64,000 nucleotides of DNA from an uncultured Flavobacteriaceae bacterium (GTDB lineage Bacteria; Bacteroidota; Bacteroidia; Flavobacteriales; Flavobacteriaceae). The position numbers were made by a program, and so were the translations under genes. This document shows positions 1 to 21,929 of the stretch, piece after piece. The stretch covers positions 1 to 64,000 of the forward strand of contig CAJXUB010000006.1 of assembly GCA_913061125.1 (NCBI GenBank), in the 5' to 3' direction. The notes under the pieces are model-generated. The model had not been told where the DNA came from. It saw only the letters and a program-made list of their open reading frames with translations, and ran no database searches. Position 1 is the first letter of the stretch. Every line of letters begins with the position of its first letter.

Positions 1-892
1 GTTCAACAAAAATTTGGTGGCGTTCTTTATCAGAAAAACGGTTAATTTTATCTTCGATTGAAGGGCAGTACCGGGGGCCAATGCTTTGAATTCTGCCATT
101 AAACATCGGGGAACGATCAAACCCGCTTTTGAGCAGGTCGTGAACCTCTGGACTGGTGTATGTCATGTGGCAAGAGCGTTGCTCTTTTAATGGTGATGTG
201 GAGTTGAGATAAGAAAATTTGTGGGGTTGATCGTCCCCTGGTTGTTCAATCATTTTAGAAAAATCAAGAGAACGTCCATCAACTCGGGGAGGAGTACCAG
301 TCTTCATTCGCCCTGAATCAAATCCTAAATCAATTAATTGTTCAGTAATTCCTGTTGCGGCTTTTTCACCCGCTCGTCCACCTCCAAAATTCTTCTCACC
401 TATATGAATAAGCCCGTTAAGAAAAGTCCCGTTTGTTAGAACCACAGAGCGGGACTTAATCTCGAGGCCTAAAGACGTTTTGACGCCAATGCAAGCGCCA
501 TTCTTCACAATGATGCCAACAACCATTTCTTGGTAAAAATCAAGGTTAGGGGTTTGCTCCAACATCAATCGCCAGTCTTCGGCAAAACGCATGCGATCGC
601 TCTGAACTCTGGGGCTCCACATGGCAGGCCCTTTGGATTTGTTTAGCATCTTGAACTGGATGGCTGAGGTATCGCTAACAATACCACTGTATCCGCCCAA
701 AGCATCAATTTCTCGTACAATTTGACCCTTGGCTATACCGCCCATGGCAGGATTACAGGACATTTGAGCAATATTCTGAAGGTTCATTGTAACCAACAAG
801 GTGCTGCTTCCCATATTTGCAGCGGCAGCGGCGGCTTCACTACCGGCATGACCACCACCAACGACTATGACATCATAGGTTTTATCGAACAT
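1..892 (-). CDS. mnmG: tRNA uridine-5-carboxymethylaminomethyl synthesis enzyme MnmG (GidA), partial
   Basis: Read on the minus strand from ATG at 892; about 297 residues are visible and the rest lies beyond the left edge. The N-terminus has the FAD-binding Rossmann motif GGGHAG at residues 12-17 and the family motif SCNPAMGGIAKG at about 45-56, followed by further MnmG-typical blocks such as GGRAGEKAATGITEQL. The family is an FAD/NADH enzyme that works with MnmE (TrmE) to modify the wobble uridine of certain tRNAs in the cytoplasm. It lies 54 nt downstream of ybeY in the same orientation, and a parS palindrome occupies part of that gap. Function is known from the family; identification is secure. 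Confidence 0.95.
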   Translation of the reverse strand, partial: MFDKTYDVIVVGGGHAGSEAAAAAANMGSSTLLVTMNLQNIAQMSCNPAMGGIAKGQIVREIDALGGYSGIVSDTSAIQFKMLNKSKGPAMWSPRVQSDRMRFAEDWRLMLEQTPNLDFYQEMVVGIIVKNGACIGVKTSLGLEIKSRSVVLTNGTFLNGLIHIGEKNFGGGRAGEKAATGITEQLIDLGFDSGRMKTGTPPRVDGRSLDFSKMIEQPGDDQPHKFSYLNSTSPLKEQRSCHMTYTSPEVHDLLKSGFDRSPMFNGRIQSIGPRYCPSIEDKINRFSDKERHQIFVE

Positions 893-903
893 AATTTAAT
901 CGC

Positions 904-923
904 ATTGTTCCACGTGGAACAAT
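904..923. promoter_or_regulatory. parS-type ParB-binding palindrome
   Basis: Positions 906-921 read TGTTCCACGTGGAACA, a perfect 16-bp palindrome that matches the bacterial parS consensus (TGTTnCACGTGnAACA). The symmetry extends one AT pair on each side and then a further pair, making 20 bp (904-923). It lies in the non-coding gap between the ybeY stop and the mnmG start. It is the only such site I see in the window. In other bacteria parS sites are bound by ParB and cluster near oriC, often close to gidA/mnmG. Binding here is inferred, not shown. Confidence 0.85.
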
Positions 924-929
924 TGTTTG

Positions 930-937
930 CAAATATA
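930..937 (-). promoter_or_regulatory. possible -7 element of an mnmG promoter
   Basis: On the minus strand the sequence reads TATATTTG, a perfect TAnnTTTG element, 37 nt before the mnmG ATG. No convincing TTTG element is present about 20 nt further upstream. If it is active, transcription would begin close to position 923, the edge of the parS palindrome, so ParB bound there could affect mnmG transcription. Confidence 0.35.
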
Positions 938-946
938 ATGTTATAT

Positions 947-1360
947 CTACAAATTGAGTTTAGAAATATAGTAGTTCTCTTTACCTCGCATTTGTTCTTT
1001 TTGATCATTCGTCTTGTCGTTGTAACCGCAAAGGTGTAAAACACCGTGTGCCATAATCCTTGCAAGTTCTAAGTCAAATGTCACATCGTAGAGTTTCGCA
1101 TTGTCTTTGATGCGGTCTATGGAAATACATACATCGCCAGATAGGTAGCTTCCTTGACTGTAATCAAAAGTGATAACGTCTGTAAGTGTGTGGTGGTTCA
1201 GATATTGAATGTTTAAATCGAGTAATTGTTCGTCGCTACAAAACACTATTGAGAGATCACCCAACTTGAATTGTTCTTCTGAAATGAGAGATGAAAGCCA
1301 TGATGAATGACTAGACTCACTGCAAAGCTTGAAGTCGTTACGGCTGATAAATTCAATCAT
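947..1360 (-). CDS. ybeY: endoribonuclease YbeY (rRNA maturation factor)
   Basis: 137 residues, the usual length for the family. The zinc-binding signature is present as HGVLHLCGYND at 105-115, with His105 and His109 as the first two ligands. The third ligand position, usually His, is Asp115 here; I believe this is common in Bacteroidota YbeY proteins. YbeY is a single-strand endoribonuclease involved in 16S rRNA 3'-end processing and ribosome quality control. Its start overlaps the end of the upstream large membrane protein by 8 nt, so the two are probably cotranscribed, with mnmG following. Confidence 0.93.
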   Translation of the reverse strand: MIEFISRNDFKLCSESSHSSWLSSLISEEQFKLGDLSIVFCSDEQLLDLNIQYLNHHTLTDVITFDYSQGSYLSGDVCISIDRIKDNAKLYDVTFDLELARIMAHGVLHLCGYNDKTNDQKEQMRGKENYYISKLNL

Positions 1361-4300
1361 ATTGCTTTTTAAAATAATTAATAACGCGCTGGTTCAGTGA
1401 CTGTCGCAAAGGTAATGATTGTCTGTTGAGAACATCTTTAGCGTTAAACAACCGCTTTATTTCTGAGGGGAAAGAATCTGAAGATTGTTTAAAATCTTGA
1501 GTATTGAATCGTGCGGTTCTTTTTTGTTCAATTCCCTGCTTCTTGATGGCCTTGTCAAGCTTGAGATATTGATATTTTAAAGCCTGCATCTGAGCCATTG
1601 TTTTTTTTGTAACTCCTTGATTTAGAAGCAGTTGCTCTAATTTTTCCATAGCATCGATCGTAGATTTTCCCCGAGCATTCTGTCCCTTTTGTTGAAGCAA
1701 GTCCGACAGTGCTTTACGTAGTGCTTGTTGCTTTTGATACAACTGAAAAAGAGCTTCGCTAGACTCTTCACTGTCACCTAGCCCACCATTGGGACTGTCT
1801 TTTCCTGAGCTGCCCTGTTGTTGTGTTGGGCTATCTTGATTTTTGCTTTCACCACTATTGGTCGTTCCTGATCCGCTTTCGGACCCTTCATTGTCCTCTT
1901 CTTCTTGACCTTTTAAAAACTCCTCGGCCTGTTGTTTGAGCGCCTCCTGACTCATAATAATATCAGGCAACTGCATCTCGCCCTGACCCTGGCCTGGACT
2001 CATTTGAAGTTGCATTTCCATAGAGTTTAGGGCATTGCTTAACAAGTCAGCCAAACTGTTGGTCGAGGTGATCACATATTGTTGTGCGCCTGTGGCTTTG
2101 TAAGTGTCGTTTTCGGAAAATAAACGCAGTGCTTTGTCCATATTAGAATTTATATTCTCTACCTCTGTGTTGATCCTTTCAGAAACAAGCGGCTGTCTGA
2201 GGGACAATACAAACAAACTATCATCTATATGTTCAAAATGGGTTTTTAGGTTGTTTTGGTAAATCAAATTTTTGGCATAAAGACTTGGAACGGATGAATT
2301 CGATTTAAACCGTTGCATTAAATCTTCTTGTTCAAATGAAAACAATAATAAATTATCCAAAATTTGGCGAAGCATTGCAACATCTTCTTGCAATTGTTGT
2401 TGCCCACCTGATGACATTTGTTGAGACATCTTATCAGAAATTTGCATCATTTTTTGAGCCGCTTTTCGTTGCTCTTTTTGGGCCTTCTTGTTTAGATTTG
2501 ACTTGTTTCCAAGATCGTTTTGTAATTTTTTTTGTTTCAGTATTTCGAGTGCATTTTTCTGATTTTCAGAAATAGACCGCTCTTCTTTTTTGGTGTCGGG
2601 GACAGAAATTGGTTTTGTCAATTCGCGGTTGCGTTTTCGAAGGTCGTCCAAGGCCTTAGACAGGGCATTGAAAGCTTGATTGACCTCCTTTTGTTTGGCT
2701 GGCGTATTCTTGTCTTGGAGTTGTTCAGACAGGCGGTCTTGCTCTTTGGCAAGAGTCGATAGTTTTTGCTGTAACTGCGCAGCTTTTTGAGCTACATAAT
2801 AGCGTTTTGTTAGTTCTAACATTTGCTCCAAACTGCGCTGATTCGTCTGGTTTTTTTGAGACAATTTTTCAACGCGCTCCAGCAATTCTTCCTTATTAAG
2901 TTTGTTCATCAATTCGCGCAGATCCTCTAGCTCTTTTTTGGTCTCTTCGGAACGTTTTTTTTGATTCTCAAGGCGCTGAAGCAACTTTTTTCTTTCATCT
3001 GATTTGTCTTGTGATTTTTGAGAATCGTCTAAGGATTGAGACATCTTTTTTGTAAAACGCTGCATAACCGTATTCTGCTGTTCTTGCCGCTCTAAAATCG
3101 CTCGGATGTTTTGACGGTCATTAAACCCCAATTTGTCCTTTTGTCTCAACATTCGAATGGGTTCAGAATCAGAGGCCTTTTGAGGGCTGTTCGATAGTTT
3201 GTTTTCTAAATCTTGAAGTGCATCTTGTTGAGCATTTAAACGCTCTTGTTCAATTCGGTTTTCACTCTTAAAATCATAATAAAACAACGCCGATCGGGTG
3301 CTGTTGGGATTTGGAAAAGGATCGGTATCTAAAACCTCAAAATACAGCTGATAACTTGTGTCTGGCACAAGCTCTAATGCATTTGGAAACGTGTAAAAGA
3401 AATCCAAGCGGTCTTTGTTAAAAGACGTTATTTCTACGGTTGTTTGGTCGTCTTTGTCAGAAGTAGGAGCATAATGCAACAACACCTTTGAAACACCATA
3501 ATCATCGGACATTTGTCCATAAAAATATAACGGTGCTTTTATTTGATCGCCTTCTTTAACTTGAAGGTTCAGTTTGGGTGGTTGATCTGGTTTGACCTCA
3601 ATTTTAGACTCCAAAGTTTCATAATCTTTCAAGTTAGAATTGCTTGTTTTTAGAATGTATTTAAAATTAGAAAACAGGCGCTTGGCAAATGAAAATTCAT
3701 CCCCTTTTTTGTCCAGAAAAAAGGTTTGCTTGTTAGCAACAAGTGCAACGGTGTCGGTTGCTGCTGTTTGTATCGCCCATGAAACTCTTGTGCCTTCCGG
3801 AACAACAATATTACTGAAACTAGAAACGTCTTTGGATTTTAAGTTTGTATGTGCCGGGAAGTTGAGGTGTAGTTTTTGGGATAATATTTGCGGGGCCTTA
3901 ACCACGGTCAAGGTATAGGTTTCGGAAATCACATCGCCTGACACCAGCTGAAATTTCTGGTCCTGTTTTGGTTGTGAAAATTCAAATTCAAATTGATTGT
4001 TGCTTTGTTTATTTAAGTAATACGCCTGTCCGTTGAGAACAATTTGCACCTCCTCTGGAAGAATGCTTCCCTGAGTAGTAACTTGAAGTGTAAAAGAGGT
4101 GTTTTCAATGGTGGTTAAGCTGTCATCGTTCAATTTAAACACAAAAGGGGCCGGCGGCGAATATGCGGTATTATAGTTGACCACGCGCTTAAGACTATTC
4201 TCAATATTGTTTTGATTGCCAAAAAGATAAAATGGGGCTAGCACAATAAAAGGGGCTAAGGTATATTTTAGATAGCGAAGGTTGTCTTTTAAATTGACGG

Positions 4301-4724
4301 CATTAACAAAAGAAAATGAATTGAATTCCAGCGCCTTTTGTTCTACGCTGGCAAGAAGAAGTTCTGTTTTTTCAAGGCGATTTAATTGTATGGTATTCAA
4401 TAATTTATCTTTAATTTCAGGAAAGAAGGTGCCAATTAGAATTGCGGCCTCTTCATTGCTTAGGCCCTTGGTGACTTTAAAATATCTGAGAAGAGGATGC
4501 AGTACAAAGCGATAAAACAAAAAACTCTCAAACATCACCAAACTCCAAAAAACTACAGTCCTACCCAGAGTAGAAAGCCAAAAAAGATGCTCAACAAAAA
4601 CCCAAAAAATAGCATACAGTAACCCAAAACCAAGAAACAACAACACCCCTTTGATCACTGCGCTAAAGTGATAACGTCTTATAAAAGACTCCAAATTGCT
4701 GAGGGTTGTGTTGAAATGTACCAA
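1353..4724 (-). CDS. large membrane-anchored coiled-coil protein (DUF4175-like)
   Basis: 1123 residues. Two hydrophobic segments near residues 22-48 and 53-76 and a third near 152-170 put the N-terminus in the inner membrane. A beta-rich region follows to about residue 480. Then come long stretches rich in Lys, Glu, Gln and Leu (about 480-800) that look like coiled coil, a Gln/Gly patch near 910 and an acidic Ser/Gly-rich linker at about 940-990. The arrangement matches the DUF4175-like proteins found beside ybeY and mnmG in Bacteroidota. No molecular function is established that I know of; a role at the cell envelope is a guess. The reading begins at TTG (4724); no ATG or GTG start lies upstream in frame before a stop at 4758. 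Confidence 0.75.
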   Translation of the reverse strand: MVHFNTTLSNLESFIRRYHFSAVIKGVLLFLGFGLLYAIFWVFVEHLFWLSTLGRTVVFWSLVMFESFLFYRFVLHPLLRYFKVTKGLSNEEAAILIGTFFPEIKDKLLNTIQLNRLEKTELLLASVEQKALEFNSFSFVNAVNLKDNLRYLKYTLAPFIVLAPFYLFGNQNNIENSLKRVVNYNTAYSPPAPFVFKLNDDSLTTIENTSFTLQVTTQGSILPEEVQIVLNGQAYYLNKQSNNQFEFEFSQPKQDQKFQLVSGDVISETYTLTVVKAPQILSQKLHLNFPAHTNLKSKDVSSFSNIVVPEGTRVSWAIQTAATDTVALVANKQTFFLDKKGDEFSFAKRLFSNFKYILKTSNSNLKDYETLESKIEVKPDQPPKLNLQVKEGDQIKAPLYFYGQMSDDYGVSKVLLHYAPTSDKDDQTTVEITSFNKDRLDFFYTFPNALELVPDTSYQLYFEVLDTDPFPNPNSTRSALFYYDFKSENRIEQERLNAQQDALQDLENKLSNSPQKASDSEPIRMLRQKDKLGFNDRQNIRAILERQEQQNTVMQRFTKKMSQSLDDSQKSQDKSDERKKLLQRLENQKKRSEETKKELEDLRELMNKLNKEELLERVEKLSQKNQTNQRSLEQMLELTKRYYVAQKAAQLQQKLSTLAKEQDRLSEQLQDKNTPAKQKEVNQAFNALSKALDDLRKRNRELTKPISVPDTKKEERSISENQKNALEILKQKKLQNDLGNKSNLNKKAQKEQRKAAQKMMQISDKMSQQMSSGGQQQLQEDVAMLRQILDNLLLFSFEQEDLMQRFKSNSSVPSLYAKNLIYQNNLKTHFEHIDDSLFVLSLRQPLVSERINTEVENINSNMDKALRLFSENDTYKATGAQQYVITSTNSLADLLSNALNSMEMQLQMSPGQGQGEMQLPDIIMSQEALKQQAEEFLKGQEEEDNEGSESGSGTTNSGESKNQDSPTQQQGSSGKDSPNGGLGDSEESSEALFQLYQKQQALRKALSDLLQQKGQNARGKSTIDAMEKLEQLLLNQGVTKKTMAQMQALKYQYLKLDKAIKKQGIEQKRTARFNTQDFKQSSDSFPSEIKRLFNAKDVLNRQSLPLRQSLNQRVINYFKKQYD

Positions 4725-18905: not shown

Positions 18906-19340
18906 TTAGCAAATGTTGTTTATTTTATTAATTCGATTCTGATGCCTTCCGCCTTCAAAGTCGGTGTTAAGAAACACATCAACCATTTCAATAGCTTGAT
19001 CAACGCTAACAAAACGCGCTGGTATGCACAATATATTAGCATTATTGTGCTGACGGGTGAGTTCTACAATGGTTTTATTCCAACATAAACCCGCTCTTAC
19101 TCCTTTGTATTTATTTGCGGTCATGGCAACTCCGTTGGCACTTCCACAGAGTAAAATTCCATAGTGCACTACGTTATTTTCTACATCTTGAGCGACAGGA
19201 TGTACAAAATCGGGATAATCCACACTATCGTTCACATCTGTTCCGTGGTTGGTGACATCGTATCCTTTGGATGATAGGTGAGTTAAAATATCAAATTTAT
19301 ATTGTGTTCCGGCATGATCGTTTCCGATAGCTATTTTCAT
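18906..19340 (-). CDS. rpiB: ribose-5-phosphate isomerase B
   Basis: 144 residues, family length. It has the N-terminal GNDHAGTQYK motif and the active-site block GILLCGSANGVAMTANKYKG, where the Cys of LCGSANG is the usual catalytic base. It interconverts ribulose 5-phosphate and ribose 5-phosphate in the pentose phosphate pathway. Its start borders the long AT-rich non-coding region and is divergent from rnr. Confidence 0.94.
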   Translation of the reverse strand: MKIAIGNDHAGTQYKFDILTHLSSKGYDVTNHGTDVNDSVDYPDFVHPVAQDVENNVVHYGILLCGSANGVAMTANKYKGVRAGLCWNKTIVELTRQHNNANILCIPARFVSVDQAIEMVDVFLNTDFEGGRHQNRINKINNIC

Positions 19341-19689
19341 AAAGTTGAATTAAAGATCTTGATTGTAAACTTACAAAAAAATAGAGCTGTTAATGAAGTT
19401 TAAATAACACTGTTAATAAAATGGGATTATTATTAATAACTCTGTTTTGTTTTGTTGTTATTTTTTCTGAATAAAAAAATTAAGCTAACTTAAAAATTTT
19501 CTTATTTAATTTATTTAAATGACTATGAATAACACAATGGAGGGTTATAAACAATTTAATGAGATAAAAATGTATTTTTTTCAGATTAAAAAATGGGTTA
19601 TTAAAAAGTAAATAGGGTTATCAACACCCTATAATAATAACACATTAGATAAAATTTAAAAATATAAAATGGTTAGTATAGTGTAAATA

Positions 19690-19698
19690 TGTGGATAA
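19690..19698 (-). promoter_or_regulatory. consensus DnaA box
   Basis: TGTGGATAA is the reverse complement of TTATCCACA, the high-affinity DnaA-binding sequence of many bacteria. It lies 66 nt before the rnr start, within the AT-rich gap. A single 9-mer can occur by chance; the similar motifs nearby make it worth noting. Confidence 0.5.
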
Positions 19699-19716
19699 AC
19701 TTAGGTTGGGAATTAT

Positions 19717-19744
19717 TTTGCGTGATTTTAAAATAGTAGCTTTG
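19717..19744 (+). promoter_or_regulatory. rnr promoter
   Basis: TAGCTTTG at 19737-19744 is a perfect TAnnTTTG element 20 nt before the rnr ATG. TTTG at 19717-19720 could be the upstream element, but the 16-nt spacer is shorter than the usual 19-21. Confidence 0.5.
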
Positions 19745-19763
19745 TTGAAAATAAAAAGCCTTA

Positions 19764-21929
19764 ATGCGCCATAAGAAAAAGAAATCTAGGGGAATAAACA
19801 GATACTCTACAAAAATAATTTCCGTTCTAGGGTCATCCAAAACTCCACTAAATTACAAGCAAATATGCATGCGTTTAGGGATTCATGATCCAAAATCTAG
19901 AGCCGAGGTTATTTCGTGTCTTCAACATCTTCTGATTAAAGAAACAATTACAGAACCGAACCGAGGTAAATTTAAATTACAACCCTCCAATAAATACCAC
20001 ACAGGAGTCTTTAGCTCAACATCCAGAGGATCTGGTTATATTAAAGCAGATTATATTGAGGAAGAAATTTTTATCCCTGCCCACAAAACTCAACATGCTT
20101 TAAATGGCGACACCGTAGAGTTTTATATTCTTAATCGTAAACGAAATGCCCGAATAGAAGGCGAAATTATTAACGTAACTCAACGGGCCAAATTGGACCA
20201 TGTTGGAATTATTCAAATCCACGACAACTTTGCTTTTGTAATTCCAGACAATACTAAAATTCCCGTTGATATTTATGTTCCACTCAAGAAAACCAAAAAT
20301 GCAGAAGAGGGACAAAAAGTTCTTGTTCGTATAGAAGACTGGCCCGAAAAAGCCGATTGTCCTACAGGAAAAGTGATCGAAGTTCTTGGACATCCAGGCG
20401 ACCACCAAACCGAAATTCATGCAATATTAGCAGATTATGGTTTACCTCATGAATTTCCTAAAAACGTTGAAGCGTTTGCCAATTCTATCGACACATCAAT
20501 TAGGCCTGAAGAAATAAAGAAACGCAAAGATTTTCGTTCCGTTCTAACCTTTACCATAGATCCAAAAGATGCTAAAGATTTTGATGATGCTCTTTCGTTT
20601 AAAGTATTAGAAAACGGTCATTTTGAAGTAGGAATTCATATTGCAGATGTGTCTTATTACGTCAAAGAGGGTACCATTTTAGATGATGAAGCCTACCAAA
20701 GAGCTACCTCAATTTACCTTGTGGATCGGGTGGTTCCCATGCTCCCAGAATGTTTATCAAACCACGCTTGTTCTCTTCGGCCTCGTGAAGAAAAATACAC
20801 ATTTTCGGCTGTGTTTGAAATTAATAACAACGGTCAGTTATTTAACCAATGGTTTGGACGAACAGTAATTTTTAGCGATGCCCGTTTTTCGTATGAAGAA
20901 GCTCAACATATTATTGAAACTAAAACCAAAACAATCCCCGACGATGTTTCGTTAACAAATAAAACCTATACGACCTCAGACGACATAAAACAAGCCATTT
21001 TAACTCTTGATAAACTTGCAAAATTGCTACGCCACAACAGACTCAACAGCGGTGCGATCTCTTTTGATAAACTAGAGGTGAAATTCAATTTAGATTCCAA
21101 TAACAACCCCTCTGACGTTTATTTTAAAACTTCCAAAGATGCCAATAAACTCATAGAAGAGTTTATGTTATTAGCCAACAGAAAAGTATCGGAATTTATT
21201 GGGAAACAAACGCCTTCTAAGACTTTTGTATATCGTGTTCACGATGTGCCGGACCAACAAAAACTTGAAAATCTACAACGCATTGTATATCAATTTGGAC
21301 ATAAATTAAACTTAAAATCTCCCAAACAAATAAGCACATCCCTGAATCAACTGCTTAAGGACGTGGTTGGAACCAAAGAGCAAAACCTTGTTGACACACT
21401 TGCCATCCGGAGCATGAGTAAAGCGGAATATACGACACAAAACATTGGTCATTACGGTTTGGCTTTTGAGTTTTACAGCCACTTTACTTCACCAATTCGG
21501 CGATATCCAGACATTATGGCACATCGTTTGTTACAACATTATTTGGATGGAAAGTCATCGCCTAATCAAAGCACCTTTGAAGATAAATGCAAACACGCCT
21601 CGAAAATGGAAAATCTTGCCACAAAAGCCGAACGAGATTCTATAAAATACATGCAAATAAAATACATGCAACATCATAAAAACACCTCTTTTTCTGGGGT
21701 TATTTCTGGTGTTACTGAATGGGGTATTTATGTAGAAATTACAGAAAATAAATGCGAAGGTATGGTCCGAATTAAGGATTTAACGCAAGATTATTTTACC
21801 TTTGATTCAGAAAATTATGCTTTGGTTGGAGAAAAAACCAAACAATGCTACCAACTTGGAGATCGAGTTACAGTCAAAGTAAAACACGCCGATTTAATTC
21901 GAAGACACCTCGATTTTACTATAATTTAA
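19764..21929 (+). CDS. rnr: ribonuclease R
   Basis: 721 residues. The order is an N-terminal winged-helix region, OB/cold-shock domains, the catalytic RNB domain with the Asp cluster TIDPKDAKDFDDAL at about 269-282 and HYGLAFEFYSHFTSPIRRYPD, and a C-terminal S1 domain (FSGVISGVTEWGIYVEI). It is a processive 3'-5' exoribonuclease that degrades structured RNA. The ATG follows a good -7 element at 19737-19744. The DUF2807 gene starts 9 nt after its stop, so they probably share a transcript. Confidence 0.96.
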   Translation: MRHKKKKSRGINRYSTKIISVLGSSKTPLNYKQICMRLGIHDPKSRAEVISCLQHLLIKETITEPNRGKFKLQPSNKYHTGVFSSTSRGSGYIKADYIEEEIFIPAHKTQHALNGDTVEFYILNRKRNARIEGEIINVTQRAKLDHVGIIQIHDNFAFVIPDNTKIPVDIYVPLKKTKNAEEGQKVLVRIEDWPEKADCPTGKVIEVLGHPGDHQTEIHAILADYGLPHEFPKNVEAFANSIDTSIRPEEIKKRKDFRSVLTFTIDPKDAKDFDDALSFKVLENGHFEVGIHIADVSYYVKEGTILDDEAYQRATSIYLVDRVVPMLPECLSNHACSLRPREEKYTFSAVFEINNNGQLFNQWFGRTVIFSDARFSYEEAQHIIETKTKTIPDDVSLTNKTYTTSDDIKQAILTLDKLAKLLRHNRLNSGAISFDKLEVKFNLDSNNNPSDVYFKTSKDANKLIEEFMLLANRKVSEFIGKQTPSKTFVYRVHDVPDQQKLENLQRIVYQFGHKLNLKSPKQISTSLNQLLKDVVGTKEQNLVDTLAIRSMSKAEYTTQNIGHYGLAFEFYSHFTSPIRRYPDIMAHRLLQHYLDGKSSPNQSTFEDKCKHASKMENLATKAERDSIKYMQIKYMQHHKNTSFSGVISGVTEWGIYVEITENKCEGMVRIKDLTQDYFTFDSENYALVGEKTKQCYQLGDRVTVKVKHADLIRRHLDFTII

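Follow-up and report, generated by a model that had tools for sequence, protein, structure and literature searches.

A predicted pair of chromosomal parS sites bracketing mnmG in an uncultured Flavobacteriaceae bacterium

The stretch of DNA analysed here (the window, 64,000 nucleotides) opens with the 5' part of mnmG (gidA), which is read on the minus strand. Between the ATG of this gene, at position 892, and the stop codon of the preceding gene ybeY, at position 947, lies a gap of 54 bp that holds a perfect palindrome. The features of this end of the window are as follows.

1..892, minus strand: mnmG (gidA), 5' part, with the rest on contig C45; TIGR00136 pieces on C6 and C45
904..923, unstranded: 20-bp perfect palindrome enclosing the parS core
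906..921, unstranded: predicted parS core, TGTTCCACGTGGAACA; this exact 16-mer occurs twice in the 1.8-Mb draft
930..937, minus strand: TATATTTG, putative -7-like element, 8 bp ahead of the parS core as mnmG is read
947..1360, minus strand: ybeY, upstream of mnmG; PF02130, E 1.4e-26

Beyond ybeY, a 1,123-aa reading frame occupies positions 1353-4724 of the minus strand and has a weak match to DUF4175 that falls under the family cut-off.

The palindrome (ATTGTTCCACGTGGAACAAT, half-length 10) is the only 20-bp perfect palindrome in the window. Its inner 16-mer fits TGTTNCACGTGNAACA, which we take to be the degenerate form of parS, the binding site of ParB, and is a complete match to the 16-bp palindromic consensus TGTTYCACGTGRAACA. 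Compared with the parS consensus TGTTTCACGTGAAACA printed in PMC10197239, where it is applied with two mismatches allowed, the 16-mer differs symmetrically at positions 5 and 12. It is the sole match in the window at up to three mismatches; since shuffled sequence averages 0.35 matches at this threshold, the loose match alone is uninformative. For exact 16-mers, base composition predicts ~3e-4 occurrences in 1.8 Mb, and two are observed, both adjoining mnmG. The first-pass annotation of this DNA had described an exact ParB-site 16-mer, extending to a 20-bp palindrome in the untranslated gap before mnmG and lying beside a -7-like element. This description is borne out, with the site assigned through the degenerate form that we assume for parS, and with TATATTTG being presumably what is meant by a -7-like promoter element.

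The window's genome is a 1.8-Mb draft in 69 contigs. The whole-genome search for the 16-mer that the first-pass annotation had proposed finds two exact copies, both at mnmG, and no even scatter around the genome. The second copy lies on contig C45 (C45:1057-1072), outside the window, 21 bp beyond the mnmG stop codon, and also matches TGTTYCACGTGRAACA in full. C45 and the window's contig share a 55-bp overlap within mnmG, and in window coordinates the second site is at the equivalent of -1001 to -1016. The spacing between the two sites is thus 1,922 bp. With the first in the leader and the second past the stop codon, they bracket mnmG. Allowing up to two mismatches adds two further matches in this genome. 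Looser matches away from mnmG number 29 across eight genomes, against 19 for a reversed control, and are most numerous in G003 (9 against 2).

The linkage of these sites to mnmG is widely conserved. Of the ten other members of the genus, seven have two exact sites at a spacing of ~1,920 bp, two have a single exact site and one lacks any. In all, 23 of 40 genomes, counting the window's genome, contain an exact site. The mnmG locus could be read in 37 relatives, where sites with up to two mismatches and within 300 bp of the gene are found on both sides in 29, on one side in 7 and on neither in 1. In the last of these, G039, whose genome measures 0.3 Mb, ParB has no match and no such site occurs genome-wide. 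At the same threshold of two mismatches, 80 public loci (855 kb in total, mostly from Flavobacteriia and many from metagenome-assembled genomes) carry a site on both sides of mnmG in 75 cases, upstream in 78 and downstream in 76, as compared with 2 matches anywhere for the reversed control. A further 33 matches lie elsewhere in these 855 kb, of which 18 belong to arrays directly upstream of mnmG in three Flavobacterium loci. Information content is concentrated in the site itself, at 1.0-2.0 bits in the inner 14 columns, 0.9-1.3 bits in the two outermost columns and 0.1-0.9 bits in the flanks. More broadly across the phylum, the 29 best-scoring further mnmG loci include 28 in which at least one site adjoins the gene (both sides 8, downstream only 17, upstream only 3). 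An exact site by the degenerate consensus is present in 72 of 99 phylum genomes and was not found in the other 27; among the 43 genomes listed, 40 have an exact site within 1.5 kb of mnmG, and 69 of the 73 sites listed for them fall within that distance.

Individual loci depart from the common arrangement in several ways. The parS-like arrays upstream of mnmG in Flavobacterium (L221, L228 and L230) reach up to 12 copies within ~1.2 kb in L221. In L216 (a Kordia MAG) and L246 the centre of the upstream sites is altered to CACATG; these sites have the sequence TGTTCCACATGGAACA (or CGTTCCACATGGAACA) and are present in two or three copies of the same sense. At up to two mismatches no parS-like site lies near mnmG in L268 (a Capnocytophaga MAG) or in L302, which comes from a genome, G129, that has ParB. 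We also considered whether the downstream site supplies the N-terminus (FHVE/K) of the following gene product, and rejected this reading, the frame being open for at least 120 codons in only 7 of 76 loci.

A gene for the cognate protein is present as well. ParB was identified in 36 of 40 genomes, including the window's genome, where it is encoded on contig C10 (C10:3499-4032, E 3.2e-49) together with ParA-like proteins. It was also found in all ten genomes that were checked for it: five that lack an exact site, three whose site is away from mnmG, and two comparators. Ahead of parB on C10 are two tandem ParA-like ATPases (L161:1435-2532 and 2616-3377) of 365 and 253 aa, a difference of ~110 residues. 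The genome's own ParB has ParB_N and HTH_ParB domains and aligns with ParB proteins of solved structure. Residues matching named parS contacts are Q162, G170, K171, R173, N178, G201 and R204, and position 172 is a lysine, differing from the named contact S172; these positions were placed by counting from the helix-turn-helix motif in the Caulobacter numbering of PMC7383237, rather than by direct alignment to the Caulobacter chain. According to the same paper, the R173/G201 pair is the one that reads parS, and Noc, a relative of ParB that reads similar 16-bp palindromes (Noc binding sites, NBS), has Q and R at 173 and 201. Thus the palindromes resemble NBS, but the genome's own ParB keeps R173/G201 and not the Q/R of Noc. 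In four relatives assembled as single contigs (G005, G024, G026 and G037) parB lies 0.8-1.2 Mb from parS.

We placed the sites relative to the replication origin by a two-arm GC-skew fit to 20 stretches sampled in each of five single-contig Flavobacteriales relatives. In all five, the fitted origin interval lies 2-32 kb from parS (G005 6 kb, G024 32 kb, G026 4 kb, G037 4 kb, G095 2 kb), the intervals being 45-195 kb wide and the sampling denser near parS in four of the five genomes. In G005 and G024, ~10-11% of candidate positions fit the skew better than parS does. At finer resolution the skew minimum is ~20 kb from parS in G026 and 42-47 kb from it in G024. In G005, where the skew is weak, the lowest point is at ~1,160 kb, ~85 kb from parS, and the skew dips a second time at 1,240-1,255 kb, beside parS. 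For the window's genome, a draft in 69 contigs, the origin position was placed through synteny with G005, which belongs to the same genus. We rejected dnaA as an origin marker in the five relatives, in which it lies 692-1389 kb from the fitted skew origin. According to PMC4755523, oriC is commonly far from dnaA in Bacteroidetes; in PMC10197239, parS together with GC skew serves to locate origins in gut bacteria, Bacteroidetes among them, and a warning is given about dnaA. In two distant genomes, G101 and G090, the mnmG-parS pair is ~7 kb from dnaA, unlike in the Flavobacteriales measured. A paper on Prevotella places oriC far from dnaA; if G101 and G090 are alike in this, parS would lie off the origin there, which might restrict the claim.

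The skew switch in G026 is sharp and coincides with a 553-bp AT-rich gap upstream of rpiB. From this gap we infer a candidate oriC in the corresponding region of the window.

18906..19340, minus strand: rpiB, bordering the candidate oriC; PF02502, E 3.5e-55
19341..19763, unstranded: candidate oriC, a 423-bp gap of 79% AT between rpiB and rnr
19764..21929, plus strand: rnr (RNase R-like), at the opposite border of the candidate oriC; PF00773, E 2.7e-110

Two DnaA-box-like sites lie in the gap, at 19618 (TTATCAACA) and 19690 (TGTGGATAA, exact). In the seven genus members where the gap is unbroken by a contig end, it measures 398-425 bp and a box stands 331-359 bp ahead of rpiB; this box is exact in three of the seven. 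Outside the genus its length ranges from 7 to 1,494 bp. The genes rpiB and mnmG are within 55 kb of each other in 30 of 31 genomes that have both on one contig (the exception, G035, has them 420 kb apart), and are on separate contigs in four genomes. A cluster of DnaA boxes was not found at the skew minimum, with at most two boxes, one or none of them exact, per 600 bp in the G024, G005 and G026 stretches; the rpiB region of the window has three per 600 bp. Around the gap, the window's skew is the reverse of what is expected, being positive up to ~19 kb and negative beyond, perhaps owing to gene direction. Since the boxes are few and the skew in the window runs the wrong way, the rpiB gap is to be regarded as an oriC candidate only. 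The earlier suggestion that the centromere is close to the origin therefore holds for the skew origin in the five relatives and for the candidate oriC, ~18.4 kb from parS, but not if the origin is marked by dnaA.

The two exact copies at a single gene, their conservation, the matching ParB gene and the position of the sites at the GC-skew origin region in five of five single-contig relatives together argue that the palindrome is a chromosomal parS, or centromere, as the first-pass annotation had proposed, and that it is one of two predicted ParB sites bracketing mnmG. We put the probability of this reading at about 0.93. Counting against it are the lysine at position 172, the skew results in G005, G024 and the window, the small number of boxes in the candidate oriC, the 27 of 99 phylum genomes in which no exact site was found, and the Smc result described below. 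Like the chromosomal parS of the ParABS systems of the Bacillus, Caulobacter and Pseudomonas type, these sites are 16-bp palindromes in few copies in the origin region, with a cognate chromosomal ParB that has the parS-reading residues. Here, in contrast, they stay with mnmG, away from parAB and dnaA. By analogy with established ParB biology, ParB made from the parA-parB locus elsewhere in the genome would bind the palindrome through its helix-turn-helix. The bound protein would then close as a CTP-dependent clamp and slide into mnmG and its neighbors, and ParA would move ParB such that newly copied origin regions separate first. The two sites at the ends of the 1.9-kb mnmG are probably redundant ParB loading points.

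Smc is the usual partner of ParB-parS. A search for canonical Smc in seven genomes gave no match above the TIGR02168 cut-off and weak matches in six, as against matches in 14 of 14 control genomes, 10 of them above the cut-off. On this search the palindromes are not classed as SMC-loading sites, a designation that calls for a Smc-ScpAB condensin. The lack of canonical Smc in the seven genomes agrees with PMC10197239, where the two Bacteroidetes studied are reported to have no known condensin. Six genomes (G000, G003, G005, G024, G026 and G037) have ParB and parS-like sites, yet no canonical Smc above the cut-off.

Other roles for the palindrome have to be weighed against that of a centromere. 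As the first-pass annotation suggested, ParB might also repress mnmG: bound at or just past the mnmG start, it might block or damp transcription, coupling tRNA modification to the ParB level or to the segregation cycle, an idea that we consider unlikely. Within the genus, each of the nine other loci has TATATTTG at 6-9 bp upstream of parS, and in the window the distance is 8 bp, so that parS would begin near +1 on the promoter consensus that we assume, and occlusion is geometrically possible there. There is also precedent in Pseudomonas aeruginosa, where ParB represses the genes adjoining parS3 and parS4 (PMC5521831, PMC7022226). Those sites are likewise intergenic, just upstream of a gene and near a promoter-like element, but they repress adjacent promoters, whereas such an effect would be putative for the sites described here, whose promoter spacing was seen only within the genus. 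Strict TAnnTTTG motifs were located in the 78 public loci that have an upstream site: 18 occur in the 120 bp preceding the outermost parS, the nearest at least 17 bp away, and 19 lie between the outermost parS and mnmG. These positions indicate that promoter geometry is not what retains parS. Moreover, the downstream parS cannot be an operator of mnmG, yet it is conserved about equally (76 as against 78 of 80 loci), and in 17 of the best-scoring 29 phylum loci sites are seen downstream of mnmG only.

Selection of the palindrome as an RNA hairpin, serving as an attenuator or terminator in the mnmG leader and beyond the stop codon, is extremely improbable. Both copies fold as 8-9-bp hairpins of ~-10 kcal/mol (z -2.1 and -2.5), but any DNA palindrome folds into such a hairpin, and the would-be loop ACGT is conserved as strongly as the stem. 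Furthermore, when every site near mnmG in the 80 public loci is read in the mRNA sense, stem-disrupting variants (C at 5, A at 12) prove no rarer than variants preserving a U-G wobble pair, numbering 14 against 13 upstream and 22 against 8 downstream, which makes a role in RNA unlikely. The CACGTG core is by itself generic, and the palindrome might in principle serve another CACGTG-binding regulator or have arisen by chance. This is hardly credible given ~3e-4 exact matches expected per genome and the 75 of 80 loci that have a site on either side of mnmG; the 16-mer is, in addition, within two symmetric differences of the parS consensus of PMC10197239 and lies in the skew-origin region. The conservation of the site excludes chance.

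The site belongs to a known and ordinary kind, and the interesting part is its linkage to mnmG, which is striking in most of the relatives examined. The bracketing of mnmG by parS was not found in the literature searched, the scope of which did not take in the main parS survey (Livny et al. 2007), and a prior description is possible. That oriC is often far from dnaA in Bacteroidetes is already in print (PMC4755523; see also PMC10197239). It is conceivable, and in our estimation distinctly doubtful, that parS and mnmG are a functional unit kept across much of the Bacteroidota, with mnmG held in a ParB-loaded origin zone where its dosage or transcription would read the segregation state. The phylum would then be one that has lost the proximity of parAB and dnaA to the origin zone and, seemingly, canonical SMC. 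The linkage raises the questions of why centromere sites stay with a tRNA-modification gene while the partition genes and dnaA do not, and of how ParB-parS works without canonical SMC. For the Flavobacteriales, where dnaA misleads, parS beside mnmG offers a simple landmark of the origin region.
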